Shown one piece after another: positions 26,711-49,072 of a stretch of DNA of 64,000 nucleotides. The translations under genes and the position numbers were made by a program. Source of the DNA: Clostridia bacterium. Its GTDB lineage: Bacteria; Bacillota; Clostridia; Oscillospirales; CAG-272. The number at the start of each line of letters is the position of its first letter. Position 1 is the stretch's first letter. The notes under the pieces were generated by a model. The model had not been told where the DNA came from, did no database searches, and saw only the letters and a list, made by a program, of their open reading frames with translations. The stretch lies in the NCBI GenBank assembly GCA_017503105.1, contig JAFVTS010000035.1, forward strand, positions 1 through 64,000, given 5' to 3'.

Positions 26711-26736
26711 TTTTTCGCTAAAAATCTAAAAAATAA

Positions 26737-26779: not shown

Positions 26780-26952
26780 TTTATTTCAAAAATATAAGAA
26801 GGTATTCCTTCTTATGAGGTAAAAATCGTAGCACGTAAAAAGAAAGACAGTTCGTTTTTCAGCAGTTGACAATTTGCACAAATTGAGCGACGCATATTTG
26901 TATACAATGACTATAAAATATTTATAAAAAAACGAGAGGGGCTCAAATTCGG

Positions 26953-26981
26953 TTGACTTTAAATTTTAAAAAGTTTATAAT
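26953..26981 (+). promoter_or_regulatory. Promoter of PL8-like genes 1-3
   Basis: TTGACT (26953-26958) and TATAAT (26976-26981) have a 17-base spacer and lie 37 bases upstream of the first lyase gene. The rest of the 26780-26950 gap is AT-rich with no recognisable gene or RNA. Confidence 0.8.
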
Positions 26982-27018
26982 AAATTGAAAACGATAAAAT
27001 TTTAAGGAGTGTGGAAAA

Positions 27019-29850
27019 ATGATTGATGTAAAAAGACCTGTGGAAACAAGCTTCCCCGGGTATTTTGTAGCCCCGATCGACGAGTTTTGTGAGATGGCAA
27101 AGAGCGGTGTAACTGCTATTTACCTTTATTCGTCAAACGTATTTAAGGACGGTGAAGTAAAGAAATTCGATGATGCCGACAAGAGTGTGCGCACAATGAA
27201 GAAAAGCGGCGTTACAGCGGCACCCGTGTCACTTTTTACCGATTTCCTTGACGCTGCGATGGAAGAAAAAGGCGGTGACGTTATTCTTGCTCTCGGAGAA
27301 AAGCGCGCGGTGCTCGGCTCGGAGCTTCCCCTTTTCACGGAAGGGGCGATAAAGCTTGCCGACGTAAATAAAACCGCCGAGGCGCTCGGCCTTAGTTTTG
27401 CGACCTTCGCTGAGGATAGGCTCACGGTCTTTGCCGGTGACGATATTCTCACGGCTCTGAAAAATGATAAAATGCTTATGCGCGGTGCGTGCTATGCCGT
27501 TTTCGGCAAGTATTCGACAGACGGTCTTACTCACGAGGATTTCGTTTTCGCAAAGAAAAAATGGCGCACGACCCTCGTTGGAAACGAGGAGATAAACGAC
27601 CCGACAGACCCCGATGCCAAGAAAAAGCTCGACGCTATTTCCGATAGGTGCGACAACCTTCTTTCCAATATGCACAGAGAAGCGGACGCGGTCATCCTTT
27701 GGGGAGATGAGCCTCCCGTTAATTCTTGCGACCTTCGCACGCAGTATCTTAACGTGCTGGCTATTGCCGAGGCTTACGGAACTTATGGAACAAGACAGTA
27801 TAAATCGGAAAGCCTTGCCGGAGATATTCGCTACGCCTTTCTTTGGATGTATGAAAATATGTACGGTGAGTCGATAATCGAGGGAAGGGGATGGCGTGAC
27901 CCGCATCTCTTTAATTGGTGGGAATGGATGACGGGCGCGATAGACCCGATGACGGACGCCCTTCTTATCGCCGAGGAGCTCTTTGACATAGAAACGATAA
28001 GAAAATATTTAAGGTGCTACGATTACGTATGTACCTTCCATCGCACGTATTACCGCGAGGATCACGCCTCGACCCGTCTTAAGGTCGGCACGAAGGTCGC
28101 GCTGCTTCTTGAAGACAGCGAGCGTCTTTATTACAGATTCCTCGATTACGACCTTCAGTTCGAGCCGATAGGACCGCAGAAGGGGAAGTATTGTGACCAC
28201 GTTTGTTGGACGCACGGTTTTCCTTACAATATGATGTACGGTCTTATTTATATGAACAGGACGCTCTTCGTCGCGTCGAATCTTATCGGCACGGCAATGG
28301 AGTACACCTCGCCCGATTTTTACGATCTTTTCTTGACAGCGAAATATATGTACGACGCGGCTATGTACCGCGGACGAGGCTTCGCGGTATTCCGCGGACG
28401 CGGCTTCGGCGGCGAGAAGGACGCGGGCTCCAACGTCTTGAACGGAATCTTGCCGATGCTTGGAGCATTCGGTGCGGAAGAGGATATTTTCATAAAGAGA
28501 ATGATAAAGGTAGGCTGCGCCGATCCCGAAGTAAAGAGGATGCTCTTGAGCCGATGCTCGGTGCGTGACCTCGCTCTTATAAAATCAATTCTCGCGGACG
28601 AGAGCATATCCGACGAGAATGATAAGGAGCTTGCTTATTCCTGGTTTACGGCGGACAGATTTGCTCAGCACAGAAACGACTACGCGTTTATGCTTGCTAT
28701 GCCCTCCGAAAGGCATATGTCATACGAGTCGATAAACTCAGCGCACAAAATGGGGTGGTACACGGGTGACGGAGCGCTTTACCTCTACACGAATGCCGAT
28801 TCGGAGTCGTTCAATTTCTCCGCGTTCCAATCAAATCCCGCTGTGTGTTACAGAATGCCCGGTGTCACGGCAGACCTTCGTCCCCGCGCCGTTTGGTCGT
28901 ACAGAAAAGGCTGGAAGCCGTCTAAGGCATACTCGGGCTCTATGGACTTTGACGGCTTATACGGTATGGGTGCTTTCGATTACGAGCCCTATCACTACGA
29001 GGGTCACGAGGCTGACGGCACGGTCGATGACGGATACGGCGGCGGATTTACTTATCACGAGAATGACCTTACGGCGAAAAAGTCGTACTTCTTCTTTGAC
29101 AAAGAGTGCGTGTGCCTTGGCGCGGGTATAAGCTCAACTATGAATTCGCCCGTAAGAACTACCGTCGAGCACAGGCGTCTTGTAGACGGTGCGCGAAAGA
29201 TCACCGTAAACGGGAAAGAACCCGCGAGAGAATACGTAGAAGAGATCGTAAAAGCTCCCGCGTACGTTACCCTTGAGGGCGTCGCCTCGTACGTTTTCCC
29301 CGAGGCTTGCGACGTGCGCGTGGCAAAATACAGTTATGATCCTGCGAAAGCAAAGAGTGACCATTATCACGAGGATGAAAAGCTTTGCGCCAACGATTAT
29401 TTTGAGCTTGGAGTAGAACACGGAGAGAATCCAAAGGATGCGTCGTATTCTTACGTTATCCTTCCTCTTGCGGACGAAAACTCAACACGGGTATACGCTT
29501 CTTGCCCCGAAACGGAGATAATTTCAAATACCGCAGAGCTTCAGGCAGTAAGAAAGAAGAGCCTCGGTATCACGGCGGCAGCACTCTTCAAAGCAGGTGA
29601 GATAGGACCCGTAAAGGCATCCGTTCCTTGTCTTATAATGTATAAGGAAACGGGCGGAGAGTTGAATATTTCCATTTGTGACCCGACCCAGAAGCTTGAG
29701 ACGGGTGAATTTACAGTCGTCGGCAATTACGAGTGCACAAGCGCCTCGGATGAGCTTTCGGTTGAATGCGGCAAGAGCTCGTGCGTGATAAAAGCCGATT
29801 TTACGTCTCTTGCGGGCAAATCACTTGTGATAACTTTGAAAAATAAATAA
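27019..29850 (+). CDS. PL8-like polysaccharide lyase, copy 1 (stalk-domain N terminus, cytoplasmic)
   Basis: A 943-residue protein. The N-terminal ~150 residues (KSVRTMKKSGVTAAPVSLF, then a second EALGLSFATFAEDRLTVF repeat) resemble the copper-amine-oxidase-N/stalk domain. Residues ~160-530 resemble the PL8 alpha/alpha toroid, with aromatic patch N299-W300-W301, His399 and Tyr407 in WTHGFPYNMMYG, and Arg461 in FRGRGFGGE. Residues ~540-943 resemble the PL8 super-sandwich (GWYTGDGALYLYTNAD from 579, then SYFFFDKECVCLGAGISS). There is no signal peptide or membrane segment, unlike secreted hyaluronate or chondroitin lyases. PL8 enzymes cleave uronate polymers by beta-elimination; the substrate here is unknown. 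AAGGAG precedes the ATG. Confidence 0.78.
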   Translation: MIDVKRPVETSFPGYFVAPIDEFCEMAKSGVTAIYLYSSNVFKDGEVKKFDDADKSVRTMKKSGVTAAPVSLFTDFLDAAMEEKGGDVILALGEKRAVLGSELPLFTEGAIKLADVNKTAEALGLSFATFAEDRLTVFAGDDILTALKNDKMLMRGACYAVFGKYSTDGLTHEDFVFAKKKWRTTLVGNEEINDPTDPDAKKKLDAISDRCDNLLSNMHREADAVILWGDEPPVNSCDLRTQYLNVLAIAEAYGTYGTRQYKSESLAGDIRYAFLWMYENMYGESIIEGRGWRDPHLFNWWEWMTGAIDPMTDALLIAEELFDIETIRKYLRCYDYVCTFHRTYYREDHASTRLKVGTKVALLLEDSERLYYRFLDYDLQFEPIGPQKGKYCDHVCWTHGFPYNMMYGLIYMNRTLFVASNLIGTAMEYTSPDFYDLFLTAKYMYDAAMYRGRGFAVFRGRGFGGEKDAGSNVLNGILPMLGAFGAEEDIFIKRMIKVGCADPEVKRMLLSRCSVRDLALIKSILADESISDENDKELAYSWFTADRFAQHRNDYAFMLAMPSERHMSYESINSAHKMGWYTGDGALYLYTNADSESFNFSAFQSNPAVCYRMPGVTADLRPRAVWSYRKGWKPSKAYSGSMDFDGLYGMGAFDYEPYHYEGHEADGTVDDGYGGGFTYHENDLTAKKSYFFFDKECVCLGAGISSTMNSPVRTTVEHRRLVDGARKITVNGKEPAREYVEEIVKAPAYVTLEGVASYVFPEACDVRVAKYSYDPAKAKSDHYHEDEKLCANDYFELGVEHGENPKDASYSYVILPLADENSTRVYASCPETEIISNTAELQAVRKKSLGITAAALFKAGEIGPVKASVPCLIMYKETGGELNISICDPTQKLETGEFTVVGNYECTSASDELSVECGKSSCVIKADFTSLAGKSLVITLKNK

Positions 29851-29883
29851 TAAAATCGGTAATACAAGGAGTAAACAGATAGT

Positions 29884-32706
29884 ATGATAGACGTTAAACG
29901 ACCGATACAAACTACCTTCAAGGGTTATTATAACGTACCTATGGACGAGTTTACGGAGATGACGAGAGACGGTGTAACAGCCGTTTACCTCTACTCGCCA
30001 AACGTCCTCTCCTGCGCGAAGCTATCGCGCTTTGACGAGAATGATAAAAGCGTTCGTCTGATGAAGAAAAACGGTGTAACGGTGGCACCCGTGTCACTTT
30101 TTACCGACTATCTCGGCGTTAAAGCAGAGCTTGCGGGATCTCTTATTACGCTCACGCTCGGTCAAAGGAGCTTTGCGTGCGAGTGGGTTACGGTCGGCGG
30201 AACTCATTACGCTCCGCTTGAAGAGTGCTCCTCGGCACTCGGACTTTCCTTCGGCACTTATGCCGATGGGCGTCTTACCGTCTTTGCTCCCGAGGAGCTT
30301 CTCACAAATCTCAGAAACGATGAAATGCTTATGCGCGCTGCGTGCTACGCGGTCTTCGGAAAGTATTCGACCGAGCACCTGACGCACGAGGACTTCGTTT
30401 TCACTAAGGATAAATGGCGTAAGGTTCTTGTCGGCTCACCCGAGCTCAACGACCTCTCCGATCCCATCGTGCTTGGGAAGATCGCCGAAATAGACGAGGC
30501 GTGCAAGAGCAAGCTTGCCATAATGAACAGAGATCCCTCGTCAGTTATCCTCTTCGGTACTGAGCCGCCCGTGGCATCCTCTGACCTTCTCGTTCAGTAC
30601 GGAGCTCTTTGGGATCTTGCTCGCGCATTCGGCACTTACGGCTCGCGTTATTACAGAAACGAGGAGCTCAAAAACGATATACTTTACGGCTACCGTTGGA
30701 TGTACGATAATATGTACGGCGAGTCGATAATTGAAGGCAGAGGCTGGCGTGACCCGCATCTCTTCAATTGGTGGGAATGGATGACGGGCGCTATCGAGCC
30801 TATGACCGACGGACTTATGGTTATGGAAGAGTTTTTGGACAAGGAAACTCTTGCAAAGTATTTCAGATGCTACGATTACGTGTCGACCTTCCACCGCGTG
30901 CCGTATCGCGAGGATTATGCCGCTACAAGACTTAAGGTCGGAACGAAGGTCGCTCTTCTTCTTGAGGACAGAGAAAGACTATTCTACCGCTTCCTTGACT
31001 ATGATTTAAGATTTGAGCCCCTCGGTCCCGAGAAGGGCAAGTATTGCGACCACGTTTGCTGGACTCACACATATCCTTATAATATGGGCTACGGTCTTGG
31101 ACATATGCACAGAACGGTGTACGTTGCGTCTATACTTATCGGCACGCCCGTAGAATATACTACTCCTAATTTCTACGATCTCTTCCTGACGGCGAAATAT
31201 ATGTACGATGCGGCACTTTACCGTGGGCGCGGCTTCTCGGTATTCCGCGGCAGAAGCTTCGGCGCTGAAAAGTGGGCGGGCGCCAAGGCTATAAACGGGC
31301 TTATTTCTCTGATAGGCGCGTTTGGCGATGAAGAGGACACGTACATAAAGCATATGATAAGAGTTTCCTGTACCGATGAGGTATTTAAGAAGGTGCTTAT
31401 AAGTATGTGCTCGCTCTATGACCTTGCGCTTTTGAAGTCCGTGCTTGCTGATGAGAGCGTTTCCGAGGAAAACGATAAGGAGATGGGCTACTCTTGGTTT
31501 ACCGCTGACAGATTCGCTCAGCACAGAAACGATTACGCCTTTATGCTTGCTATGCCCTCCGAAAGGCATATGTCATACGAGTCGATAAACTCAGCGCATA
31601 AGAGGGGCTGGTATACGGGCGACGGTGCTCTTTACCTCTACACTAACGCGGATTCTGAATCCTTTGAATTCCCCGCGTTCCTTTCCAATGATAATATTTG
31701 CCACAGGATCCCCGGCGTTACCGCCGACCTCCGTGCTCGCACGGTGTGGTCGTACAGAAAAGGCTGGCGTCCCGACAGAGCGTATTCGGGCTCGATGGAC
31801 TTCGATGAAAAGTATGGAATGGGAGCCTTTGACTACGAGGCGTATCACTACGAGGGCCACGAGGCTGACGGAACGGTCGATGACGGATACGGCGGTGGTT
31901 ATACGTATTACGAGAACGACCTTGTCGCAAAGAAATCGTACTTCTTCTTTGACAAGGAATGCGTGTGCCTCGGTGCGGGTATAAGCTCAACTATGAATTC
32001 GCCCGTCAGAACTACCGTCGAGCACAGACGTCTTGTCGAGGGCGGAAAGAATATATCCCTTATGGGTGAGAAAATGCCCGACGAAAACTTTGAAAAGAGA
32101 TTTGAGGGTGCGGCTTTCGTAAACCTTGAAGGTGTCGGCGGATTCGTCTTCCCCGAGGGGGAGAACGTTCTTTTGAGAAGCTATAAATACGACCCGAGAG
32201 AGGGAGCTGTGACGGACGAATACACGGCAAACTTAAACCTTAAAGTCCAGCAGTTCTTTGAGCTTGGCATAGAGCACGGGGAGAACCCGAAGGGGGCGAC
32301 GTACGCGTACTTTATCCTTCCTCTCGCGGACGAAAACTCAACACGGGTGTACGCTTCTTGCCCCGAAACGGAGATAATTTCAAATACCGCAGAGCTTCAG
32401 GCAGTGAGAAAGAAGAGCCTCGGCATTACGGCGGCAGCGCTCTTCAAAGCAGGTGAGATAGGACCTGTATGTGCATCCGTTCCTTGTCTTATAATGTACA
32501 AAGAAACAGATGAGGGACTTGAGGTGTCGGTTTGCGACCCGACGCAGAAGCTTGAGAGCGGTGAGTTCACCGTTTCCGGTGCTTTTGAATGCACCGACGC
32601 GGATATCGAGCTCAAGGTGGAGTGCGACGGCACGGCTGCTCGCGTAAGCGCCGACTTCAGAGAGCTTGCGGGTAAGGCTTTAAGATTTTCTTTGAAAAAA
32701 GTGTAA
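29884..32706 (+). CDS. PL8-like polysaccharide lyase, copy 2
   Basis: A 940-residue paralogue, closest to copy 1 (both begin MIDVKRP, and both have WWEWMTGAI). The active-site set is N295-W-W, His395 and Tyr403 in WTHTYPYNMGYG, and Arg457 in FRGRSFG. Compared with copy 1 the stalk-like segment is diverged (LITLTLGQRSFACEWVTVGG), while the C-terminal sandwich has stretches of near-identical DNA to copy 1, notably 32317-32506, pointing to gene conversion. There is no signal peptide. It starts 33 bases after copy 1 with CAAGGAG upstream, so it shares the promoter at 26953. Function is inferred from fold motifs only. Confidence 0.77.
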   Translation: MIDVKRPIQTTFKGYYNVPMDEFTEMTRDGVTAVYLYSPNVLSCAKLSRFDENDKSVRLMKKNGVTVAPVSLFTDYLGVKAELAGSLITLTLGQRSFACEWVTVGGTHYAPLEECSSALGLSFGTYADGRLTVFAPEELLTNLRNDEMLMRAACYAVFGKYSTEHLTHEDFVFTKDKWRKVLVGSPELNDLSDPIVLGKIAEIDEACKSKLAIMNRDPSSVILFGTEPPVASSDLLVQYGALWDLARAFGTYGSRYYRNEELKNDILYGYRWMYDNMYGESIIEGRGWRDPHLFNWWEWMTGAIEPMTDGLMVMEEFLDKETLAKYFRCYDYVSTFHRVPYREDYAATRLKVGTKVALLLEDRERLFYRFLDYDLRFEPLGPEKGKYCDHVCWTHTYPYNMGYGLGHMHRTVYVASILIGTPVEYTTPNFYDLFLTAKYMYDAALYRGRGFSVFRGRSFGAEKWAGAKAINGLISLIGAFGDEEDTYIKHMIRVSCTDEVFKKVLISMCSLYDLALLKSVLADESVSEENDKEMGYSWFTADRFAQHRNDYAFMLAMPSERHMSYESINSAHKRGWYTGDGALYLYTNADSESFEFPAFLSNDNICHRIPGVTADLRARTVWSYRKGWRPDRAYSGSMDFDEKYGMGAFDYEAYHYEGHEADGTVDDGYGGGYTYYENDLVAKKSYFFFDKECVCLGAGISSTMNSPVRTTVEHRRLVEGGKNISLMGEKMPDENFEKRFEGAAFVNLEGVGGFVFPEGENVLLRSYKYDPREGAVTDEYTANLNLKVQQFFELGIEHGENPKGATYAYFILPLADENSTRVYASCPETEIISNTAELQAVRKKSLGITAAALFKAGEIGPVCASVPCLIMYKETDEGLEVSVCDPTQKLESGEFTVSGAFECTDADIELKVECDGTAARVSADFRELAGKALRFSLKKV

Positions 32707-32737
32707 TTCATTACGCTCAATAAGAAAGGATTGCAAA

Positions 32738-35533
32738 ATGAGTGAAACTCCGATTTTAAGATATACCGAAACCGACAGAGGGCTTTTTCTCCGCACGGTA
32801 GGTAACGGCGCAAAAGCGGTGTTCTTGTATTCGGGTAACGTACTTTCTGACGGAAAGCTTCAAAAGTATTCGAACGGTGCTCGCACCGTTGCTTACGGCG
32901 GCGAATTGTACGTGCCGTGTGAGCTTTTCACGCGCTTTTTGGGCGCGGAGTGCGACGCGGAAAAAGCGGCGCTCGTCACGGGCACGGGCGAATACCGTTA
33001 CCGCGATGACGCAAAGGAAAAGGACGGCACCGTCTACCTTCCTGCCGAGGCGGCTTGCGGTGCGCTCGGCATCAGCGCGAGAATATACGATAAAAAGCTT
33101 CTCGTTATAGCGGATGACGACGTTCTCAGCGCCCTCTCTTCCGACGCGGAGCTTCTTAATTCCGCGATGTACACCGTTACGGGCGAGTATTCGACGGACC
33201 GCCTGACGAGCGCGGACTTCACACAGATAAAGAACAAGTGGCGCAAGATACTCGTCGGTGACGCAAGCACTAACGACTCATCCGATCCCGACGTCGCCTT
33301 GAAGCTTGAAAATATCGCTAAGGCTGCAAGAAGCGTTCAAGGGGAGCTTAACAGAGCACCCGACAGAGTTATCCTCTTCGGCGCCGCGTCTCCCGAGGCT
33401 TCGAGCGATCTTACGACGCAGTACAATAAGATCTGGACGATGGCGCAGGGCTTTGCGACCTTTGGCACGCAAACCTATCGCGACGAGGCGTTGCGCGACG
33501 ATATTCTTGACTCGCTCTCTTGGATGTATGAGAATATGTACGGTGAGTCGATAATTGAGGGACGCGGATGGCGTGATGCGCGAGCCTTCAATTGGTGGGA
33601 TTGGTTTGTCGGCGGCGTCATTCCTCTTACGAGGACTATGCTCGTGATGGAAGAATTCCTTTCGATGGAAACGAAGGATAAGTATCTTAAGTGCTTTAGG
33701 TGGATAATGACGGTCCACAGAGTCGGATACAGGAAAGATTTTGCGTCAAGCCGTATTCCCGTAGCCACGCTCGCGGCACTTCTTCTTGAGGATAAGGAGC
33801 TTCTTTACAACGAATTTCTCGATTACGATCTTCTTCTTGAGGAATCGGGAGCTGAGAGGGGAAAATATCCCGACCACGTTTGCTGGACCCATAATTATCC
33901 CTACAATATGATGTACGGCTTCTGCGCGATAGACCGCACCTTCTTCGTCGGCTCCGTCCTTTCGGGCACGGCGGCAGAGTTCAAAAGCCCCAAGGAATAC
34001 GGAATGTACGATCTCGTAAAATATATGTACGAGGCGGCGTGCTACAAGGGGCAGGGCTTCGTGATATTCAATGGCAGAGCGAATATGGGCTCGGAATTCG
34101 CCTCGGGAATTACCATAATCACCAAAGTTCTTCCGATGATAGGCTGCTTCGGTGATGACGAGGACGAGTACCTTAAGCATATGGTAAAGCGCCTTTGCTC
34201 GACGCCGGAAATAGTCGCGGGGGCAAAGAGAGCTTGCTCGCTTTATAATCTCTCCGTTCTGAACTCCGTACTTGAGGATGAGAGCGTTTCGGGCGAGAAC
34301 GATTATCAGCTGACCTACGCGTGGTTTACCGCTGACAGAATAGCTCACCACAGAGATGACTACGCCTTTATGCTTGCTATGTCCTCTGAAAGACATCCGT
34401 CCTACGAGTCTATAAATTCCGCAAACAGACGCGGCTGGTATACGGGCGACGGCGCGCTTTATTTCTATACGAATACCGACAGGCACTCCTTCGACGGCGC
34501 CAACTTCATAACCAATCCCGAAATAACGAGGCGCATCCCCGGCACGACGACCGACGCGCGGGAGATGAAGGAGTGGGCTTACAGATCCGGTTGGAAGAGC
34601 CCTAAGGCTTATGCGGGCTGTATGGACCTTTTCGGCTCGTTCGGTATCGGCGCGTTTGAGTATTCGGCATACCACTACGACGGTCACGAGGCTGACGGCA
34701 CCGTTGACGACGGCTACGGCGGCGGATTCGTTTATTACGAGAATGATCTTGAAGCGAAGAAGTCTTACTTCTTCTTCGACGGTGAGGTCGTGTGTCTTGG
34801 CGCGGGTATAAGTTCAACGATGAACTCTCCCGTCAGAACTACCGTCGAGCACAGACGTCTTGTAAAGCCCTTGGGCGGCGAGCTTATAAGCGTCGCGGGT
34901 GAGAAAATGCCTGACGGCGAGTTTACGAAGACGGGCGAAATTCCGTTTATATGCATAGAGGATTTTGCGGGCTACGTCTTCCCGTCGGGCGGCGAGGTCG
35001 AGGTGAAAAGATATATTCGCCGCGAGTCGACCAAGCTTGACGGCTATTTCACGGGCGATATAAACGAAAATACGCAGTTCTGCGCTGAAATAAATATGTT
35101 GCACGGCGAAAATCCGAAGGACGCATCGTATGCTTACGTTATCCTTCCTTACGCCGACGCGGATAAGACCGCGGCATACGCGAAAGCTCCCGAGATTGAA
35201 ATAATAAGGAACGCTCCCGAATGCCAGGCGGTAAGAAAGCCCTCGTCGGGCGTCACGTCTATTGCCTTTTACGGGGCGGGCGAGTGCGCGGGCGTTAAAA
35301 CCGATATTCCCGCGATAGTAATGCTCGGCGAAAGGGACGGCGTCTTGACCTTCTCCGTATGCGACCCGACGCAAAAGGCGGAGCGCGGAGTATTTACCGT
35401 TGAGGGTAAGCTTGAGCTTGTCAGCGCTTATCCCGAGATGACGGTAACCGTCGGCGAGAACTCTTCCGTTATAGAGGCTGACCTTACTTCTCTTGCGGGA
35501 AAGAATCTTGTGGCGGAGTTTAAAATAAAGTAA
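32738..35533 (+). CDS. PL8-like polysaccharide lyase, copy 3
   Basis: A 931-residue paralogue and the shortest member. It lacks the MIDVKRP opening and starts MSETPILRYTETDRG. The stalk-like N terminus keeps GGELYVPCELFTRFLGAE and the second VYLPAEAACGALGISARIYD repeat. Active-site candidates are N285-W-W-D-W, His385 and Tyr393 in WTHNYPYNMMYG, and Arg447 in FNGRANMGSE. The super-sandwich has GWYTGDGALYFYTNTD and VVCLGAGISSTMNSPV. It is the last gene of the first transcription unit, with a strong terminator about 120 bases downstream. There is no signal peptide. Confidence 0.77.
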   Translation: MSETPILRYTETDRGLFLRTVGNGAKAVFLYSGNVLSDGKLQKYSNGARTVAYGGELYVPCELFTRFLGAECDAEKAALVTGTGEYRYRDDAKEKDGTVYLPAEAACGALGISARIYDKKLLVIADDDVLSALSSDAELLNSAMYTVTGEYSTDRLTSADFTQIKNKWRKILVGDASTNDSSDPDVALKLENIAKAARSVQGELNRAPDRVILFGAASPEASSDLTTQYNKIWTMAQGFATFGTQTYRDEALRDDILDSLSWMYENMYGESIIEGRGWRDARAFNWWDWFVGGVIPLTRTMLVMEEFLSMETKDKYLKCFRWIMTVHRVGYRKDFASSRIPVATLAALLLEDKELLYNEFLDYDLLLEESGAERGKYPDHVCWTHNYPYNMMYGFCAIDRTFFVGSVLSGTAAEFKSPKEYGMYDLVKYMYEAACYKGQGFVIFNGRANMGSEFASGITIITKVLPMIGCFGDDEDEYLKHMVKRLCSTPEIVAGAKRACSLYNLSVLNSVLEDESVSGENDYQLTYAWFTADRIAHHRDDYAFMLAMSSERHPSYESINSANRRGWYTGDGALYFYTNTDRHSFDGANFITNPEITRRIPGTTTDAREMKEWAYRSGWKSPKAYAGCMDLFGSFGIGAFEYSAYHYDGHEADGTVDDGYGGGFVYYENDLEAKKSYFFFDGEVVCLGAGISSTMNSPVRTTVEHRRLVKPLGGELISVAGEKMPDGEFTKTGEIPFICIEDFAGYVFPSGGEVEVKRYIRRESTKLDGYFTGDINENTQFCAEINMLHGENPKDASYAYVILPYADADKTAAYAKAPEIEIIRNAPECQAVRKPSSGVTSIAFYGAGECAGVKTDIPAIVMLGERDGVLTFSVCDPTQKAERGVFTVEGKLELVSAYPEMTVTVGENSSVIEADLTSLAGKNLVAEFKIK

Positions 35534-35650
35534 CGGGCGATTGCAGAGAAAAATCTGTAAAGCAAAGCTTGCGAAGCCGGAACTATTCACGCGGTATTCG
35601 AAGCGAGGAGCGGAAAATCGACTCTTGCAAAAGCTTAAAGCCAAGGGTAA

Positions 35651-35692
35651 AGTTGCACAAAATCCTTCATTGGATTTTGTGCAACTTTTATA
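35651..35692 (+). terminator. Terminator between PL8-like copies 3 and 4
   Basis: A perfect 15-bp stem, AGTTGCACAAAATCC (35651-35665) with GGATTTTGTGCAACT (35672-35686), is followed by TTTATA. It closes the first lyase transcription unit. Confidence 0.88.
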
Positions 35693-35730
35693 TCAAAACA
35701 AGAAAAAATTTTTTTAATTTTTTAAAACGG

Positions 35731-35759
35731 TTGACATCAATTTTTGCGGAGGGTATAAT
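35731..35759 (+). promoter_or_regulatory. Promoter of PL8-like genes 4-7
   Basis: A perfect TTGACA (35731-35736) and a perfect TATAAT (35754-35759) are separated by exactly 17 bases. The copy 4 start is 51 bases downstream. This is one of the strongest promoters by consensus in the window. Confidence 0.88.
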
Positions 35760-35810
35760 TGTGGTGTAGTGTAAATAAATATTTTTCCCTAAAGGGAAAG
35801 GAGAAGAAAA

Positions 35811-38702: not shown

Positions 38703-38712
38703 AAGCAAAGGT

Positions 38713-38741
38713 GGGCGCTCCTATAAAAAATGTGAGCGCCC
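38713..38741 (+). other. Hairpin between PL8-like copies 4 and 5
   Basis: GGGCGCTC (38713-38720) pairs with GAGCGCCC (38734-38741) across a 13-base loop. An A-rich tract follows instead of T, so it is unlikely to terminate the plus-strand transcript. It may protect or process the mRNA between the two genes. Confidence 0.5.
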
Positions 38742-38787
38742 AAGAAAAAATAGAATTGCACTGTCAGGGGAAGAGAGGGACAAAAAA

Positions 38788-41679
38788 ATGGCAGAAAAAA
38801 AGAATTTTGATTATTATTCCGAGGGTGATACCGCGACGTTTAAAAGAATATCTATAAGAGGCGGTATTGCTATATTCCTTTATTCAAGAAACGTATATAA
38901 GGAATGCAAGATACATCTTTACGACGACTCTAACAGAGCCGTCCGCGCGATAGCGAAAGCGGGAGTGACCTACGTGCCCGCATCGTTCTTCGCGAAATTC
39001 CTCGGTGCTAAAGAAAGCAAGAGGTGCGGCAAGGTAACGCTCACGCTCGGTGAGCGCACCGTCACCTTCTCCGAGGGCTCTGTTGCTTATAAGAGCAACG
39101 CAGAGGCAGGGGAGTTTGATTTTCCCGTCGAGAAAAAGGACGGACACCTTTATCTCCCCGCTGTGAAGACTGCCGCTATGCTCGGCATTCCCGCAAAGTC
39201 TTATAACGAGGATCTTCTGACCGTCTTCGGCGAGGAGGCGGTAAGCACTCTTGACGCAAATCCCGGCGCCGTATACGCGGGCGGTTACCTCGTGCTCGGC
39301 GACTACGACAGAACGGCTCTCACTCCCGAGAATATGAAGATCGTTAAGGACAAGTGGCGCTCCGTGCTCGTCGGCGACGAAAAGATAAACGATCTTTCAG
39401 ACCCCGTAGTTCTTGAAAAGATAGAGGCAAAAAGCCGTTCTTGCGAGGAAAAGTGGAAGAGCCTTAACAGAGGCGAGGACCGATACGTGCTCTTCGGAGA
39501 TAAGCATCCGACAGATTCCGTCGACCTTCTTACACAGTATTCGGGTCTTGCGCAGATGGCTCACGGCTTTGCGACCTATGGCTCAAGATATTACCGCAAC
39601 GAGGAGCTTAAAAACGATATTCTTGACTGTATTCAGTGGATGTACGAGAATATGTACGGCGAGGCGGAGATAAACGAGCGCGGTTGGAGAAGCCCCAGGG
39701 CTTACGACTGGTGGCACTGGTACGTGGGTGGCGTTGAGCCTTTGCTTGACTGTCTTCTTCTTATGGAAGAGTTTATTCCTATGGAGAAAATGGAGAAGTA
39801 TCTTCGTTGCTTCAAGTACGTTCTTACTATTCACAGAGTCGGATATCTTCGTCCGTTTGCGATGAGCCGTATAAAGGTCTGCACAAGAGCGGGTCTTCTT
39901 CTTGAGGATGCGGATATGATATATGAAGAATTCCGCGATTACGACCTTCTTCTGACCATAACGAAGGACGAAGAGGGTGCGCACACCGATTACGTCGAGT
40001 GGACTCACGGCTATCCTTACAATATGATGTACGGTCTTAATAACCTCGTAAGAGTTACATATATGGGTGCTATGCTCGGCGGAACGCCGCTTGAGTTCAC
40101 AAGCCCGAGGCAGTACCGTCTTTTCAATATGGCGAAGTATATGTTCGAGGCGTCGTGCTATCAGGGCAGAGGCTTTATGGGCTTCAACGGACGCGGCATC
40201 AGCGGCTCGGAGATGAACAGCGGTGTTTCTATCGCAAACGGCTTGCTTCCTATGATAGGTCTTTTCGGCGACGATGAGGATAATTACATAAAGAAGACTA
40301 TTAAAAGATACTGTGCCAATCCTAAATTCAAGGCGGCACTCAAAGCTGCCTGCTCGCTTTATTACCTCGCGAAGCTTATGGAGATACTTAACGACGATTC
40401 CATTTCCGAGGAGAATGATTTTGAGCTGACTCACGCGTGGTACACGGGTGACAGAGTGGCTCAGCACAGAAACAACTACGCGTTTATGCTTTGTATGCCC
40501 TCTTGCCGTCACCCGTCTTACGAGAGTATAGACGAGGCAAACAGACGCGGTTGGTATACCTGTGACGGAGCTCTTTATCTTTACACGGACGCCGATTATA
40601 ATTCCTTCGACGGAGTGCATTTCATCGCAAACGAGCGTATAGCGTACAGAATTCCCGGCACGACGGTTGACGAGCAGACGAGAAAGCCTTGGGCTTACCG
40701 CTCGGGCTGGCGTCCGTCAAGAAGCTTCTCGGGCTGTATGCAGGTGGACAGAAAATACGCGGTCGGCTCCTTTGATTATGAGTCTTACCACTACGAGGGA
40801 CACGAAAACGACGATAAGACGGACGGCGGCTACGGCGGCGGCTTCGTCTTCCACGAAAACGACCTCGTGGCAAAGAAATCCTACTTCTTCTTTGATAAGG
40901 AGTGCGTCTGCCTTGGCGCGGGCATCAACTCTACGATGAACTCTCCCGTAAATACCACGGTCGAGCACAGAAGACTCGTAAAGGATGCGGACGGAAGCTT
41001 CGGTCTTGAAGATATAGTTCTTGACGGTGCGCTTCTTGAAAAGGGCGAGTATTCCGAGAAAAAGTCTGGCGCTAAATGGGCAAGCCTTGAGGGTGTCGGC
41101 TCTTACGTCTTCCTTGAGGACAGCGAGGTGTATCTGAACAAGTACAGCGTCAAGGGCGAGATGAAGGTTGAGGATATGTACTTCAGACCCGATCCCGACG
41201 ACGTTAAGTATAAAGATGCGGGCAAGCCCTTCTTCGAGCTTGGCATAGCTCACGGCAAGAACCCCACCGACGCGGATTACGCTTACGCTATACTTCCTTA
41301 CGCGACCCCCGATGCGGCAAAGGCATATTCCGATACCCCCGAGGTTGAGGTGATAGCGAACACCAAGGCTCTTCAGGCGGTAAGAAAGCCCTTGCTCGGT
41401 CTTAGCTTCTACGTCTTCCACGAGGCGGGCGAGTGCGATGGCATCACCGTTTCCGAGCCCTGCATAGTCGCATTAAAGGCAAAGGACGGCGAATGCTCCG
41501 TCAGCGTTTGCGACCCGACGCATAAGCTTGAAAGCGCTACCGTCAAGATCGATCGCGCACTTTCTCTTGTCAGCAAGGCAAGGCAGCTTGCGGTCGAATG
41601 CGAAGCGCAGACGCAGATCACGGTAGATTTTGTAAATTCCGCAGGTGAGAATTTCGTCGCGGAGTTTGAAGAAAAGTAA
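38788..41679 (+). CDS. PL8-like polysaccharide lyase, copy 5
   Basis: A 963-residue paralogue closest in motif pattern to copy 4. Its aromatic patch reads Y-D307-W-W-H-W instead of N-W-W, a change shared with copy 6. His407 and Tyr415 are in EWTHGYPYNMMYG, and Arg469 is in FNGRGISGSE. The sandwich has GWYTCDGALYLYTDAD and CVCLGAGINSTMNSPV. The N terminus has the two stalk-like repeats (GVTYVPASFFAKFLGAK, then GHLYLPAVKTAAMLGIPAKS). It begins 85 bases after copy 4, with GAGAGGGA upstream. No export signal is present. The Asp and His changes near the substrate cleft suggest a shifted specificity within the array. Confidence 0.76.
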   Translation: MAEKKNFDYYSEGDTATFKRISIRGGIAIFLYSRNVYKECKIHLYDDSNRAVRAIAKAGVTYVPASFFAKFLGAKESKRCGKVTLTLGERTVTFSEGSVAYKSNAEAGEFDFPVEKKDGHLYLPAVKTAAMLGIPAKSYNEDLLTVFGEEAVSTLDANPGAVYAGGYLVLGDYDRTALTPENMKIVKDKWRSVLVGDEKINDLSDPVVLEKIEAKSRSCEEKWKSLNRGEDRYVLFGDKHPTDSVDLLTQYSGLAQMAHGFATYGSRYYRNEELKNDILDCIQWMYENMYGEAEINERGWRSPRAYDWWHWYVGGVEPLLDCLLLMEEFIPMEKMEKYLRCFKYVLTIHRVGYLRPFAMSRIKVCTRAGLLLEDADMIYEEFRDYDLLLTITKDEEGAHTDYVEWTHGYPYNMMYGLNNLVRVTYMGAMLGGTPLEFTSPRQYRLFNMAKYMFEASCYQGRGFMGFNGRGISGSEMNSGVSIANGLLPMIGLFGDDEDNYIKKTIKRYCANPKFKAALKAACSLYYLAKLMEILNDDSISEENDFELTHAWYTGDRVAQHRNNYAFMLCMPSCRHPSYESIDEANRRGWYTCDGALYLYTDADYNSFDGVHFIANERIAYRIPGTTVDEQTRKPWAYRSGWRPSRSFSGCMQVDRKYAVGSFDYESYHYEGHENDDKTDGGYGGGFVFHENDLVAKKSYFFFDKECVCLGAGINSTMNSPVNTTVEHRRLVKDADGSFGLEDIVLDGALLEKGEYSEKKSGAKWASLEGVGSYVFLEDSEVYLNKYSVKGEMKVEDMYFRPDPDDVKYKDAGKPFFELGIAHGKNPTDADYAYAILPYATPDAAKAYSDTPEVEVIANTKALQAVRKPLLGLSFYVFHEAGECDGITVSEPCIVALKAKDGECSVSVCDPTHKLESATVKIDRALSLVSKARQLAVECEAQTQITVDFVNSAGENFVAEFEEK

Positions 41680-41690
41680 TAACTGTTTCA

Positions 41691-41720
41691 AGAGGCGGCA
41701 GGCGGCTGTCGCCTCTTTTA
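41691..41720 (+). terminator. Weak terminator-like hairpin between copies 5 and 6
   Basis: AGAGGCG (41691-41697) pairs with CGCCTCT (41710-41716), followed by TTTA. The short T-run suggests partial termination or attenuation ahead of copy 6. Confidence 0.45.
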
Positions 41721-41732
41721 GAGGTGTAAAAA

Positions 41733-44534
41733 ATGACTGAAATTTCTAAGTTTAAAATAGAAGTAGTAAGAGATCCCAATAAATTTGATTACTATACACC
41801 CGAGGATGAGTCGAGATTCTGCGAGCTTATAAAGGAAAGCGGAGCCTGTTCGCTCTTCCTTTATTCAAGAAACGTTCTTACGGGCGACGGCATAAAGTGG
41901 CTTGACGCGGGCGATAAAAGCGTCAGGACCATTGCAAGAGGCGGAGTTATGTACGCACCCGTGTCGTTTTTCCGTGACTTTCTCGGTAAAGAGGTAAGCT
42001 CGGAGGACGGATTTTTACCGCTCGTCGGGACCTGTGAGGAGCTTGGAGTTTGCGCAAAGACCTACAACGACGGACTTCTCTGTATCGTCGGCGGCGAGGT
42101 TATAGACTCGGAGATAAAGAAAAATCCGCGCCTTATCTATGCGGGCGGATATGCGACGCTCGGGAAATACGACGCGTCAAAGTTCACGTCGGATGATTAT
42201 AAGATCGCAAAGAAAAAATGGGTCGAGTCCATCGTCGGAAATGAGGAGATCAACGATCTTTCCATTCCCGAGGTCAAGGAAAAGGTCGAGGCGGCTGAGA
42301 AAAATTACGAGGCGGCACTCGCAAAATTCCACAGAGATCCCGATGCTATAATCCTCTTCGGCGAAAAGCCGCCGACAGATTCACACGATCTTAACACCCA
42401 ATACGATGCCATAAGAAGCTTTGCCATCGCTTGGGCAATGCCCGGGTCGAAATATTATCACGATGAGCGCGTGCTATCCGACGTTCTTTTTGGACTTGAG
42501 TGGATGTACCTTCATATGTACGGAGAGGCGGAGATAGAAAACCGCGGTTGGCGCAGCGCTTACGATTACGATTGGTGGCATTGGTTTGTCGGAGCGTCGG
42601 AACTCCTTACGGACGTACTCTTCTTAATAGAAGAGCACGTCACGATGGAAGAAAAGACAAAATATCTCAGATGCTTCCGCTGGGTAGTTACCTTTATGCG
42701 CCAAGGCTATTTCCAGAACTGCGCTACGAGCCGTATCAAGGTTTGCACGAAATGCGCTCTTCTTCTTGAGGACGGCGAGTGGATGGAGAACGAGTTTTAC
42801 GACTACGATCTTCTGAACGAGATAAACGAGGAGGGTGAAGGTCCGCATATCGACTTTATAAACTGGACTCACGTCTACCCCTATAACTTCGTTTACGGCA
42901 ACAATAATCTTTGCCGTGTCCTCTTCGTCGGCGCGATGCTCGGCGGCACGCCTCTTGAGTTCACAAGCCCGAAGCAGTATAATCTCTTCAAGATCGCGAA
43001 GTATATGTTTGACCCCATAGTTTACCGCGGAAGAGCCTCGCAGATATTTGTCGGCAGATGTATAGGCAGCGAGTTTGCCCTCGGTGCCGACACCCTGACA
43101 CAGCTGCTTCCTATGATAGGTCTTTACGGCGAGGATGAGGACGACTTCATCCGCCGAATGATAAAAAGAAATTCCGTAGCTCCCGAGGTGGTAAGTGCCG
43201 TTAAGCGTCAGTGCCAGCTCCCCGAGCTCAAGAAATATATTGACATACTTAACGACGAGAGCCTCTCTTATGAGAACGATTACGAGATAGGACACGCATA
43301 CTTCACGGGTGACAGAGCCGTTCAACAAAGAAACGATTACGCCTTTACGGTCGCACTTTGCTCGGACAGACACCCGTCGTACGAGAGCATCAACGGAGCA
43401 AACAAGCTCGCTTGGTACACGGGCGACGGCGCGCTTTATCTTTCAACGAAAAATGACAGCCATACGTTTGACGCGGCTAATTTCTTCGTCAACGAAAAGG
43501 TGATGATGAACGTTCCCGGTACGACCGTTGACACGCAAAAGCGTATTCCCTGGTCACACAGAGTGGGGCTTTCCGGCGCGAGTGATTTTGCGGGCTCGCT
43601 TGCGATGAACGGAAAATTCGTTACGGCTGCAATGGATTATCACGCTTACGATTACCACGGAGAAACGAATCCCGCAAGCGACGGCGATTACGGTGGCGGA
43701 TACCTTCCTCATACGAACGACCTTAACGCGAAAAAAGCGTACTTCCTTCTTGACAAGGAGTGCGTGTGTCTTGGCGCAGGGATAACGTCCACGACGGGCT
43801 ATCCCGTAAAAACGGTGGTAGAGGACAGGTCGCTTGTCGTAAACGACGGTGAGATAAGAGGTACCGATCGCACGGCCGTTGACGGCACGGTGCTTTCCGT
43901 TTCCGATTTTGAAGAAACGCTCTTTGACCGCCCGCGCTTTGCGTCCCTTGAGGGGGTCGGCGGTTACGTATTCCTTGAGGAAGCTCACGTTTCAGCTGAA
44001 AAGTTCACACTGACCGAGTTTATCTCATCGGCAAAGGACGGCAAGGTGCTTGATATGAAGAAGCACGGTGAGCCTAAGAGATTCTTTAAGCTTTGTATAG
44101 AGCACGGGGAGAATCCGAACGGGGCAAGCTATGCTTACGCAACGGTTCCGTATGCAACCGACGCTGAGCTTTCCGAGTATGCAGAGCACCCCGAGGTCGA
44201 GATAATAAGCAACACGAGTGCTTTGCAGGCACTCAGAAAAAAATCCATCGGAATCAGCTCTTACGTCTTCTATCAGGCGGGGGCGTGTGAAGAAATTACG
44301 GTTTCCGAGCCTTGTATAGTCACGGTGTATGAGTCGGAGAATGAATACAAAATATCCGTGTGCGACCCTACGATGAAGCTTGAGAATATCAAAATTACCG
44401 TGGCAAAGGCGTTGAAGCTTGAGCGTGCCGACGACGCTGTTAAGGTAACGGACGGCGCGAATGCGGAGCTTGACGTAAACGTAACTCATTCCGTCGGAAG
44501 ACCTTACACCGTTGATTTTAAACTTTTATTTTGA
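41733..44534 (+). CDS. PL8-like polysaccharide lyase, copy 6 (shortened N-terminal domain)
   Basis: A 933-residue paralogue. The stalk-like N terminus is reduced: after RGGVMYAPVSFFRDFLGKE the following strand pair found in the others is missing, and the second repeat resumes at FLPLVGTCEELGVCAKTYND. The catalytic module has D280-W-W-H-W, His380 and Tyr388 in NWTHVYPYNFVYG, and Arg442 in FVGRCIGSE. The sandwich has AWYTGDGALYLSTKND and CVCLGAGITSTTGYPV, the latter more diverged than in the others (EDRSLV instead of EHRRLV). It follows a weak terminator-like hairpin and is possibly expressed less. There is no signal peptide. Confidence 0.75.
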   Translation: MTEISKFKIEVVRDPNKFDYYTPEDESRFCELIKESGACSLFLYSRNVLTGDGIKWLDAGDKSVRTIARGGVMYAPVSFFRDFLGKEVSSEDGFLPLVGTCEELGVCAKTYNDGLLCIVGGEVIDSEIKKNPRLIYAGGYATLGKYDASKFTSDDYKIAKKKWVESIVGNEEINDLSIPEVKEKVEAAEKNYEAALAKFHRDPDAIILFGEKPPTDSHDLNTQYDAIRSFAIAWAMPGSKYYHDERVLSDVLFGLEWMYLHMYGEAEIENRGWRSAYDYDWWHWFVGASELLTDVLFLIEEHVTMEEKTKYLRCFRWVVTFMRQGYFQNCATSRIKVCTKCALLLEDGEWMENEFYDYDLLNEINEEGEGPHIDFINWTHVYPYNFVYGNNNLCRVLFVGAMLGGTPLEFTSPKQYNLFKIAKYMFDPIVYRGRASQIFVGRCIGSEFALGADTLTQLLPMIGLYGEDEDDFIRRMIKRNSVAPEVVSAVKRQCQLPELKKYIDILNDESLSYENDYEIGHAYFTGDRAVQQRNDYAFTVALCSDRHPSYESINGANKLAWYTGDGALYLSTKNDSHTFDAANFFVNEKVMMNVPGTTVDTQKRIPWSHRVGLSGASDFAGSLAMNGKFVTAAMDYHAYDYHGETNPASDGDYGGGYLPHTNDLNAKKAYFLLDKECVCLGAGITSTTGYPVKTVVEDRSLVVNDGEIRGTDRTAVDGTVLSVSDFEETLFDRPRFASLEGVGGYVFLEEAHVSAEKFTLTEFISSAKDGKVLDMKKHGEPKRFFKLCIEHGENPNGASYAYATVPYATDAELSEYAEHPEVEIISNTSALQALRKKSIGISSYVFYQAGACEEITVSEPCIVTVYESENEYKISVCDPTMKLENIKITVAKALKLERADDAVKVTDGANAELDVNVTHSVGRPYTVDFKLLF

Positions 44535-44556
44535 TAAATAAGGGAAGGAAAGAAAA

Positions 44557-47442
44557 ATGATAAAGCTTGACGAAGTTTGTCTTGACGCCTTTACATCGGA
44601 GGACGTTTCGGAGTTCAGAGCCCTTGCGAAGAACGTTACGGCGATATTTATTTATAACAAAAACGTCCTCGTCGGCGGAAAAGAACGTTGGATAGATCCC
44701 GATAATTTTAAAGTCAGAACCGAGATGCGCCGCGGAGTCAGCGTTGCTCCCGTCAGCATTTTCGAGTGCGCAGAGGGGGGGCGTGTAGAGAAAAACGCCA
44801 TAACCGTCGGCAAAAAGACCCTTAATTTTAAGAAAAATTCAAAGAAGTATACGGTTGGTAATAAGACGGGCGTATTTTCCGTAGCTCCGTTTTCTTACCT
44901 TGGGCATACTTACGTCCCCGTGGCGGAATGTGCCGAAGCTCTCGGTATTTCGGTACTCACGCTTTATCAGAACAGACTCACCGTTTTCGGAAAGAAAAGC
45001 GATATTTCCGCGATAAAGACCGCGATAAAGAAAAATCCCGCCCTTGAGTTTGCGGGCGGCAGAGCCGTTATAGGTGAATACGATGCGACGAAGTTCACCT
45101 CCGCCGATTATAAAGCTGCAAAGGATAAATGGCGCGAGTCACTCGTCGCATCTCCCGAGCTCATCGACACGGCCGACGCACTTCTTATGGAAAAGATAAC
45201 GGAGAGAAACGACAGTGCTGCCGAGCTTTGGAGAACTCTTAACAGAGGCGAGGACAGAATAATTCTCTGGGGTGACGAAGCGCCGACGGAGTCCTGTCAT
45301 TTAAGATTCCAGTACGATAAGCTTTTTGCCTTGACTCTTGCCTGGGGCACTTATGGATGTGAGCTTTATCACAACGAGGACTTAAAACGCGATATTCTTG
45401 ACGCGTACCGCTGGATGTACGAAAATATGTACGGCGAGGCAGAGATAGAGAACAGGGGCTGGAGAAGCATACACACCTTTAACTGGTGGGATTGGTACGT
45501 AGGAGCTATCGAGCCTATGACCGACGGTATGCTTATAATGGAAGAGTTCTTCACTTACGAGGAAAAGAAAAAATATCTCAAGGTGCTTGAATTCGTCCTT
45601 GACAGCTGGCGCACCGGTGATTCACAGGACCATTGCTCGGGCAGAATGAGCGTCGGCACGAAATGCGCTCTTCTCCTTGAAGATCCCGTAAGGCTTGCGC
45701 GCTCGTCCAACGACTATCACGTAATGCTTGAGGTCAAGCTTGCAGGTCCCGGAACGCACACCGATTATTGCAACTACCAGCACGGCTTCCCCTATAATAT
45801 GATGTACGGAATGTCTAATCTCAACCGAGTATTGAGGGTTGGAGCTAATCTTGCGGGAACGCCCCTTGAATTTGCGAGCCCGAGATATTACAATCAATTC
45901 AACCTCTTTAAGTTTATGTATGAGGCGGCAATGTACAGAGGACGCGGATTTATGTGCTATTGGGGCAGAGCCTCGGCGGGCTCCGAGCGCAGCGCGGGTA
46001 TGGGAGTTATCACGAAGATCCTCCCGATGATAGGCAATTACGGTCCCGAGGAGGACGAGTACATTCGCCACTTCGTTAAGTACAGCCTCTCATCCGAGGA
46101 GCAGATAGACGTTGCAAAGCGTTCTTGCTCGCTTGGCTCTTACGCCGCCTTTAAACAGATACTTGATGATGATACTATCTCCGCAAGCAACGATTACGAG
46201 TGCGCTCACGCTTGGTTTACCGCCGACAGAGCGGCTCTACACAAAAACGATTACGCATTCTGCGTTTCTATGCCGTCATACCGTCACCCGAATTACGAGT
46301 GCATAAACAACGCGAACAAGACGGGCTGGTATATGAACGACGGAACGCTCTATCTTTACACCAAAACCGACCAATTTGAGTTTGACGGTGTGAATTTCGT
46401 GCTTAACGATCGCTTGGCGCACAGAATGCCCGGCACTACCGTTGACGTAAGAGAGCGTAAGGCTGTCGCGATCGCGGGCGGCTCAAGCTGGCGTCCGAAG
46501 TCCGACATCGTCGGATGTATGCAGTTTGACGGCAAGTACGTCGTCGCGGGTATGGACTACGAGGCGTATAATCAGGCGGAGGATGAAATAAAGGAGGACA
46601 AGGGCTACGGCGGAGGAAAGCCGAAGTTCGTAAACGATCTCGTTGCCAAAAAGGCGTACTTTATGTTTGACGACGAGTGCGTCTGCCTTGGCGCGGGCAT
46701 TACCTCTACTATGAACTCTGATATTAACACCGTCGTTGAGCACAGACGTCTTGTAAAGCTCGACGGTGCGCCCTTCGGCAAGGATAAAATCGTAGTTGAC
46801 GGTGAACTCTTAACGGAAAAGACCTTTGATAAAAGCTTTGATAAACCGAGCTTTGCTATGATAGAGGATTTCGCGGGCTATGTTTTCGAAGACGTGAAGA
46901 CCCTTTCCGTCAGCAAGTATATGTACGAGCACAATCCCGAGTCCTTCGATAACTACGTTTCCTTCCCCGAGTGGGCAAAGGGCAAGCGTCCGTTTGCCGA
47001 GATAATGGTAAATCACGGAAAGAACCCGAAGGGCGACACCTACGCTTACGCTATTCTTCCTTACGCGGATGAAGAAAAGACCGCAGCTTATGCCAAAAAT
47101 CCCGATTACAAGATAATTTCCAACACCACCGCGTGCCAGGCGGTAAAGGAGAAGACCCTCGGCGTAACGGCTATCATCTTCTACGGGGCAGGTGAGTGCG
47201 CGGGAATCAAGGTTGACAGACCCTGTATCGTGACGTATTCCGAAAAACGCGGCAAGTTTAAGATAAGCGTCGCGGAGCCCACTAACAAAACCGACAAGGT
47301 AAAGCTTGAGATTATGAAGAAGCTTGAGCTCGTATCGGCTGACGCGCGCTACAAGATTCTGTGCGGCGATACTGTGAAGATCACGCTCAACGTAGATCTT
47401 TCCGCAGGTGAAGCTTACGAAGCTGTATTCTCTAAAACGTAA
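44557..47442 (+). CDS. PL8-like polysaccharide lyase, copy 7
   Basis: A 961-residue paralogue, 22 bases after copy 6, with AAGGGAAGGA upstream. The toroid has N309-W-W-D-W, His409 and Tyr417 in YQHGFPYNMMYG (nearest of the seven to the QH-x-Y-x-x-x-YG form of characterised PL8 enzymes), and Arg471 in YWGRASAGSE. The sandwich differs at the key turn: GWYMNDGTLYLYTKTD replaces T-G-D-G by M-N-D-G. CVCLGAGITSTMNSD is kept. The N-terminal stalk-like repeats are at about 60-145 (GVSVAPVSIFE; GHTYVPVAECAEALGIS). There is no signal peptide. It is the last gene of the array and ends at a bidirectional terminator. Confidence 0.76.
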   Translation: MIKLDEVCLDAFTSEDVSEFRALAKNVTAIFIYNKNVLVGGKERWIDPDNFKVRTEMRRGVSVAPVSIFECAEGGRVEKNAITVGKKTLNFKKNSKKYTVGNKTGVFSVAPFSYLGHTYVPVAECAEALGISVLTLYQNRLTVFGKKSDISAIKTAIKKNPALEFAGGRAVIGEYDATKFTSADYKAAKDKWRESLVASPELIDTADALLMEKITERNDSAAELWRTLNRGEDRIILWGDEAPTESCHLRFQYDKLFALTLAWGTYGCELYHNEDLKRDILDAYRWMYENMYGEAEIENRGWRSIHTFNWWDWYVGAIEPMTDGMLIMEEFFTYEEKKKYLKVLEFVLDSWRTGDSQDHCSGRMSVGTKCALLLEDPVRLARSSNDYHVMLEVKLAGPGTHTDYCNYQHGFPYNMMYGMSNLNRVLRVGANLAGTPLEFASPRYYNQFNLFKFMYEAAMYRGRGFMCYWGRASAGSERSAGMGVITKILPMIGNYGPEEDEYIRHFVKYSLSSEEQIDVAKRSCSLGSYAAFKQILDDDTISASNDYECAHAWFTADRAALHKNDYAFCVSMPSYRHPNYECINNANKTGWYMNDGTLYLYTKTDQFEFDGVNFVLNDRLAHRMPGTTVDVRERKAVAIAGGSSWRPKSDIVGCMQFDGKYVVAGMDYEAYNQAEDEIKEDKGYGGGKPKFVNDLVAKKAYFMFDDECVCLGAGITSTMNSDINTVVEHRRLVKLDGAPFGKDKIVVDGELLTEKTFDKSFDKPSFAMIEDFAGYVFEDVKTLSVSKYMYEHNPESFDNYVSFPEWAKGKRPFAEIMVNHGKNPKGDTYAYAILPYADEEKTAAYAKNPDYKIISNTTACQAVKEKTLGVTAIIFYGAGECAGIKVDRPCIVTYSEKRGKFKISVAEPTNKTDKVKLEIMKKLELVSADARYKILCGDTVKITLNVDLSAGEAYEAVFSKT

Positions 47443-47478
47443 GCATAAATGCCGGTTTACGTAAACTTTAATTGACAA

Positions 47479-47519
47479 AACACCCACAGTCCGAAGAGGA
47501 CTGTGGGTGTTAAAATTTT
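47479..47519. terminator. Bidirectional terminator ending the lyase array
   Basis: A perfect 14-bp stem, AACACCCACAGTCC (47479-47492) with GGACTGTGGGTGTT (47498-47511), is followed by AAAATTTT. It separates the convergent copy 7 and MATE genes. Confidence 0.88.
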
Positions 47520-47528
47520 GCAAACGAT

Positions 47529-49021: not shown

Positions 49022-49072
49022 AAAGTTTTTTTATAATAATTTAACACGGGGTAGGGCTGATATGAGATTTTA

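Follow-up and report, generated by a model that had tools for sequence, protein, structure and literature searches.

Seven tandem PL8-fold genes with an altered predicted active site in a Clostridia genome

Seven consecutive PL8 genes

The window examined here is a 64,000-nucleotide stretch of DNA (positions 1 to 64,000 of contig JAFVTS010000035.1, assembly GCA_017503105.1) from a Clostridia bacterium of the order Oscillospirales, and it contains seven consecutive genes of polysaccharide lyase family 8 (PL8), which we designate A to G. All seven open reading frames (ORFs) were located on the forward strand, as the original prediction from the nucleotide sequence had listed them: A at 27019..29850 (943 amino acids [aa]), B at 29884..32706 (940 aa), C at 32738..35533 (931 aa), D at 35811..38702 (963 aa; the copy whose structure was modelled), E at 38788..41679 (963 aa), F at 41733..44534 (933 aa), and G at 44557..47442 (961 aa). 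With 931 to 963 codons each, they jointly occupy 20.4 of the 64 kb, and chance is not an issue as a source of this observation. Pairwise identity among the copies is 41 to 68%, A and B being the closest pair (68%).

Membership of PL8 is solid by sequence and fold, and lyase activity is predicted. Above the Pfam cut-offs, every copy matched Lyase_8 (E values of 1.2e-42 to 4.1e-48), Lyase_8_N (7e-15 to 5e-25), and Lyase_8_C (5.5e-14 to 5.1e-18), so that the complete PL8 domain set of N-terminal alpha-toroid, super-sandwich, and C-terminal beta-sandwich is present. The modelled fold of D agrees with these profiles, and the nearest solved relative is xanthan lyase both by sequence (of G) and by fold (of D). 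Motifs typical of PL8 had been claimed for all seven copies. Counted in the translations, [ND]WW, HxxPYNxxYG, and GR indeed occur in 7/7, but CVCLGAGI occurs in six (copy C reads VVCLGAGI) and GDG in four, D, E, and G retaining DG only. The N-terminal ~175 residues resemble Cu_amine_oxidN1 in D and E, with G just under the cut-off.

Nine Lyase_8 matches were found in the genome, which is 96.5% complete at 2.60 Mb in 44 contigs. Seven of them are the array; the other two, both on contig C17, are a further paralogue, H (945 aa), located close to the contig end, and a PL8 gene of 581 aa.

Cell location and active site

To look for export signals, we judged N-terminal hydropathy rather than using a trained predictor. 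By this measure, none of A to H has a strongly hydrophobic N terminus, and the stop-to-stop frames exceed the ORFs by only 1 to 14 codons (35 in E). A single search of named genome contigs returned 16 related loci, 12 of which (L021 to L030, L033, and L035) belong with the copies to a signal-less group; hydrophobic N termini were present in the relatives L031a, L031b, L032, L034a, and L034b.

The active site was compared by alignment with Bacillus xanthan lyase, whose residues are given in chain numbering. Where no paper is cited, the roles of the aligned residues, including those of the Arg of GR and the Glu of YExxN, and the importance of Arg313 are our assumptions. All seven copies keep NWW or DWW, the catalytic His246 and Tyr255, the Arg of GR, and the Glu of YExxN, the interval between His and Tyr being one residue shorter than in xanthan lyase. 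At the column of Asn194, copies A to G read T, T, S, S, S, S, and G, so the asparagine expected to neutralize the substrate carboxylate is missing throughout. The arginine of ISR (Arg313) is likewise absent from the seven copies, the GS of the DGS ahead of His is replaced, and an insert with GWR, whose W and R are invariant in a 23-row alignment (A2), stands before NWW.

The loss of asparagine extends beyond the array. It is missing from all 21 signal-less units that cover the position (L035 has no coverage there) and present in six of the eight other relatives in the alignment, namely, L031b, L034a, L034b, L037, L038, and the 581-aa gene. The two others, L031a and L032, are both secreted, and L032 additionally lacks the catalytic His. 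Among 15 further PL8 pieces, 14 cover the column and 13 have Asn, L054 being the exception. A profile-profile alignment (hhalign) set the Ser of D opposite Asn194, in the same column as the first alignment. An alternative alignment shifts the segment by three residues; A, D, and G then show other residues, none of them Asn. Without recourse to alignment, the segment that runs from the first invariant Arg (HR, MR, or WR) to the next T(K) lacks Asn in six copies (A to E and G), while copy F has one, but at another place.

A PL8 enzyme without a neutralizing Asn has a precedent. Table 4 of PMC12088678 gives Asn183 as the carboxylate neutralizer of chondroitin AC lyase and Asp398 as that of chondroitin ABC lyase II (PDB 2q1f), which thus resembles the seven copies in having a neutralizer other than Asn. 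The Asn neutralizer of the AC and xanthan type is therefore not universal in PL8.

History and genomic setting of the array

We built a tree of 22 units, of which 19 form the signal-less clade (support 100/100). G groups with L021 to L024 of other species, F with L027 of another species, and D with H from contig C17 (each 100/100); A groups with B (100/100), and C joins this pair (99/98). Owing to the placement of G and F beside genes from other species, the approximately unbiased (AU) test, for sets named after the first tree had been seen, rejected both a single clade of A to H (p-AU, 1.4e-7) and one of A to F plus H (p-AU, 8.9e-7). The idea that the copies form one clade is thus not supported, and several older lineages stand side by side in the array. 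Recent amplification in place is ruled out for the array as a whole and likely for A and B only. The expectation that divergent copies have been retained was borne out: the A/B pair is under constraint, since its nonsynonymous divergence (dN) is 0.24 against a synonymous divergence (dS) of 1.5, which is near saturation, and the synonymous sites of D and H are saturated. Codons 811 to 870 of A and B share 94% DNA identity, compared with 53 to 88% in the other 60-codon windows of the pair, which suggests gene conversion.

Two of the related loci encode double ORFs (L026:7001-12706 and L029:7190-12703; 1902 and 1838 aa), each with two complete signal-less PL8 units head to tail. These genes come from goat and roe-deer gut genomes. 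Because their first units pair together, and their second units likewise, the fusion probably predates the split of the two genes. Elsewhere, a 2660-aa frame of another genome in the phylum (G449:C1:1795105-1798179) has two Lyase_8 matches.

Around this genome, PL8 is rare. Matches were found in 4 of 35 other genomes of the genus, 13 of 393 sampled from the order, and 2 of 397 sampled from the phylum; these samples overlap, and many of the genomes are incomplete. The largest count elsewhere in them was four PL8 genes over three contigs (G320). Titles of the 12 signal-less loci name goat, roe-deer, or water-deer gut in six cases and no host in six, and since related loci name animal guts, the genome of the window probably also comes from one. 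None of 192 viral stretches that fit a pattern encodes a relative. Weak PL8 matches (<60% identity) occur in 24 plasmid records; one of these records, from Nonomuraea, has matches at five places but a single PL8 ORF in the 38 kb examined, so it shows no array. A search of the open-access literature, mainly of titles, revealed no description of PL8 genes in a tandem array, nor of a pairing of PL8 with M14.

The intergenic gaps from A to G measure 33, 31, 277, 85, 53, and 22 bases. A promoter scan found 31 sigma-70-like sites (17.1 expected), and the best two, by consensus match only, lie on the forward strand before A (26953..26981; 11/12) and before D (35731..35759; 12/12, spacer of 17). Between C and D, a strong forward-strand hairpin (35649..35688; 17-bp stem, T-rich end, −25.1 kcal/mol, z of −8.9) was not among the terminator-like sites of the terminator scan. 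Further forward-strand hairpins lie between D and E (38712..38742; no T run, z of −4.0), between E and F (41690..41717; listed in the terminator scan, z of −4.4), and after G (47479..47511; short T run, −27.5 kcal/mol, z of −7.2), the last being strong as well and lying beyond the stretch that the scan covered. The simplest reading is that ABC and DEFG are likely to be two transcription units, with the terminator-like hairpin between E and F falling inside the second.

The array lies in a segment (26711..60909) between infB and an OGG_N gene, which starts at 60910, 34 kb from infB, and is followed by DUF6062 at 61971. The related genome G013 has nothing between infB and the OGG_N gene with its neighbor DUF6062, and G823 has a spacer there of about 2.3 kb that contains two other ORFs; because this interval differs among the three genomes, the site is variable. 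The OGG_N gene and DUF6062 were not seen in the other eight of ten flanks from the genus (5.6 to 8.2 kb each), and no mobile-element gene was recognized among the neighboring proteins scanned.

The original prediction had found no transporter, regulator, sulfatase, or unsaturated-glucuronyl hydrolase nearby. A scan of 20 flanking proteins, which did not extend to the leftmost 14 kb of the window, indeed revealed no regulator, sulfatase, sugar importer, or GH88 protein; next to the array it showed two MATE proteins and one of GHL6 type as well as other genes, and 3 of the 20 proteins had no Pfam match. With neither a sugar importer nor a regulator among these 20 proteins, the array does not fit the definition of a Gram-positive polysaccharide utilization locus (PUL) in PMC9067506, which calls for an enzyme, a transporter, and a regulator in one locus. 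However, an MFS_2-type transporter lies within the window at 2115-3410, and a route for unsaturated uronate is present in the genome, although unlinked to the array. Contig C14 carries a GH2 gene, two GH88-like ORFs (one over and one under the cut-off), a KduI-family protein, and an ORF that resembles an SDR by eye; C40 and C18 hold further GH88-like matches, that on C18 fitting GH127 better. The surroundings of H on C17 comprise AraC regulators, a GH95 protein, a member of the rhamnosidase family, and two secreted proteins, one of 1966 aa with HepII_C and one of 1065 aa. Of the transporter families searched, the genome gave one SBP_bac_1 match and two MFS_2 matches.

A gene of about 345 to 366 aa for an M14-like protein (PF00246; 4e-7 to 1e-13) adjoins PL8 in L021, L022, L025, L031, and L032, and tblastn added such a gene in L023 and L036 and a partial match in L024, giving 8 of the 16 loci. 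The other eight showed no M14 match; among them, L033 and L035 stop at a contig end. HGGE and NPDGR are kept in all seven M14-like rows. At the place of GVDLNRN, which we take to be the motif expected of carboxypeptidases, six rows read GVNMMHD or GINMMHD and one reads GVNIMHD, and because this motif is altered in 7/7 rows, it is doubtful that the protein is a true carboxypeptidase. In the order sample, M14 relatives of at least 61% identity were confined to 3 of 394 genomes, and these are also the three with PL8 matches to alignment A1 better than 1e-200; two of the three share a genus. Six further genomes have M14 relatives (38 to 52%) and no PL8, which speaks against an obligate partnership. 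The genome of the window carries three tandem M14-like zinc hydrolase genes on C14 (L067:14871-18084), on another contig than its PL8 genes and with 75, 62, and 61% identity to the L025 gene. In L036 (9833-11126), a PL8 relative beside the M14-like gene is split across two overlapping reading frames.

Several other features were recorded. Two very large proteins on different contigs (L019:858-6758 and L071:1730-8338) are 46% identical; the N terminus of the first is hydrophobic, and this protein also matches HepII_C. In the window, a 951-aa protein with a hydrophobic N terminus and no Pfam match is encoded at 57181-60036 (−); part of it is 31 to 34% identical to the secreted 1065-aa protein beside H. 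An FMN riboswitch (99 bits) lies at 1156-1291 (+), and a tetrahydrofolate riboswitch (56790-56896, −) precedes a 598-aa ORF (54907-56703, −) that combines an ECF-transporter S-component-like N terminus, just under the cut-off, with Mur-ligase (FolC-like) domains and is perhaps a folate transporter-folylpolyglutamate synthase fusion.

Predicted function and alternatives

We consider it reasonably probable (about 0.6) that A to G act in the cytosol as PL8-fold lyases and use beta-elimination at a remodelled site to complete the breakdown of uronic-acid-containing oligosaccharides taken up by the cell. This proposal draws on the PL8 fold, the lack of an export signal by hydropathy, the retained His, Tyr, Arg, and Glu, the lost Asn, and the unsaturated-uronate genes elsewhere in the genome. 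Oligosaccharides would be released outside the cell, perhaps by the secreted heparinase-II-like proteins of the genome, and then enter it. Tyr and His would remove the proton at C5 and donate one to the leaving group, and another residue, perhaps an arginine (that of GWR or one of the two around the lost Asn), would neutralize the carboxylate. GH88-like hydrolases would free the unsaturated uronate, which KduI and a dehydrogenase would process. Duplication and probably transfer may have brought the old lineages next to each other, and the copies may have been kept since each prefers different neighboring sugars or decorations.

Several points weigh against this proposal. No importer gene adjoins the array, and, in the transporter families searched, the matches in the genome amount to the three given above. 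The absence of an export signal rests on hydropathy, and, as described in PMC12827396, Pt_XanPL8a lacks a signal yet was recovered from culture supernatant. The loss of Asn could bring changed or weak chemistry, and the Arg after the lost Asn is common to xanthan lyase in the alignment and so not new to the signal-less clade, which makes it a weak candidate for a new neutralizer.

That the copies are xanthan-type side-chain lyases acting on imported gum oligosaccharides and varying by terminal-sugar decoration is unlikely, although xanthan lyase is their nearest solved relative and oligosaccharide-cleaving PL8 enzymes without a signal peptide have been described. These are Pt_XanPL8a and the PL8 xanthan lyase of Ruminococcaceae UCG-13, which PMC12827396 places in xanthan loci with GH88, mannosidase, and other genes (and a transporter in the Paenibacillus locus); we liken them to the array by description only. 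No xanthanase or mannosidase was seen beside the array, where no search aimed at them was made. Compared with xanthan lyases (EC 4.2.2.12; Bacillus sp. GL1, PDB 1j0m; Paenibacillus, PDB 6f2p), A to G have lost Asn194 and Arg313, have one residue fewer between His and Tyr, and have gained the GWR insert and the N-terminal ~175 residues, with no signal peptide seen.

Ordinary extracellular lyases of host glycosaminoglycans (hyaluronate or chondroitin type), amplified to cover sulfation patterns, would be a comparably improbable identity. Besides the missing export signal, the lost Asn, and the lack of a sulfatase among the flanking proteins scanned, the two copies compared with NCBIfam equivalogs fell far under the cut-offs for HylB (D, 217; G, 235; cut-off, 1350) and chondroitinase AC (D, 116; G, 110; cut-off, 1000). 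As described in PMC9067506, Bacteroides thetaiotaomicron also has more than one PL8 enzyme of differing action mode, but BT3324 and BT3350 are only two, are periplasmic, and belong with a sulfatase and GH88 to a chondroitin-sulfate PUL system. According to PMC7911691, the mannuronate-specific PL8 enzyme PsMan8A (PDB 7r2x) acts on a substrate that is neither a glycosaminoglycan nor xanthan.

A more speculative idea, which we think has little chance of being right, starts from the loss of the neutralizing Asn: the signal-less clade would form a PL8 subfamily, as yet undescribed, whose changed chemistry may allow elimination at uronic acids with a masked carboxylate (by an amide-linked amino acid, for example), and the M14-like zinc hydrolase would remove the mask. 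The same loss, in 21/21 signal-less units covering the place, would fit catalytically weak or inactive lectin-like or scaffold proteins, but the retention of His, Tyr, Arg, and Glu in all seven copies and the use of Asp398 by chondroitin ABC lyase II make this explanation distinctly unlikely. Finally, although the assembly has 44 contigs, is probably metagenomic, and is the one genome of its species among those compared, it is very improbable that copies of several strains were joined: the copies are at most 68% identical, misassembly on repeats is unlikely because the longest exact same-strand repeat within the array is only 59 bases (between A and B), GC and GC3 (third codon positions) fit the range of ten other window genes, and the array sits in a 155,716-base contig whose scanned flanks are ordinary chromosomal genes.

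On present sequence evidence, the seven genes are best seen as members of a variant PL8 subgroup with no export signal seen, a remodelled site, and an unusual clustering. Chondroitin AC and xanthan lyases hold the carboxylate of the substrate with an Asn; the signal-less clade keeps the base and the acid and drops this Asn, and with seven members in a row it offers a natural test of how much of the mechanism is needed. The array also points to a glycan still to be assigned, and together with the two double-PL8 genes it provides material for a substrate screen.
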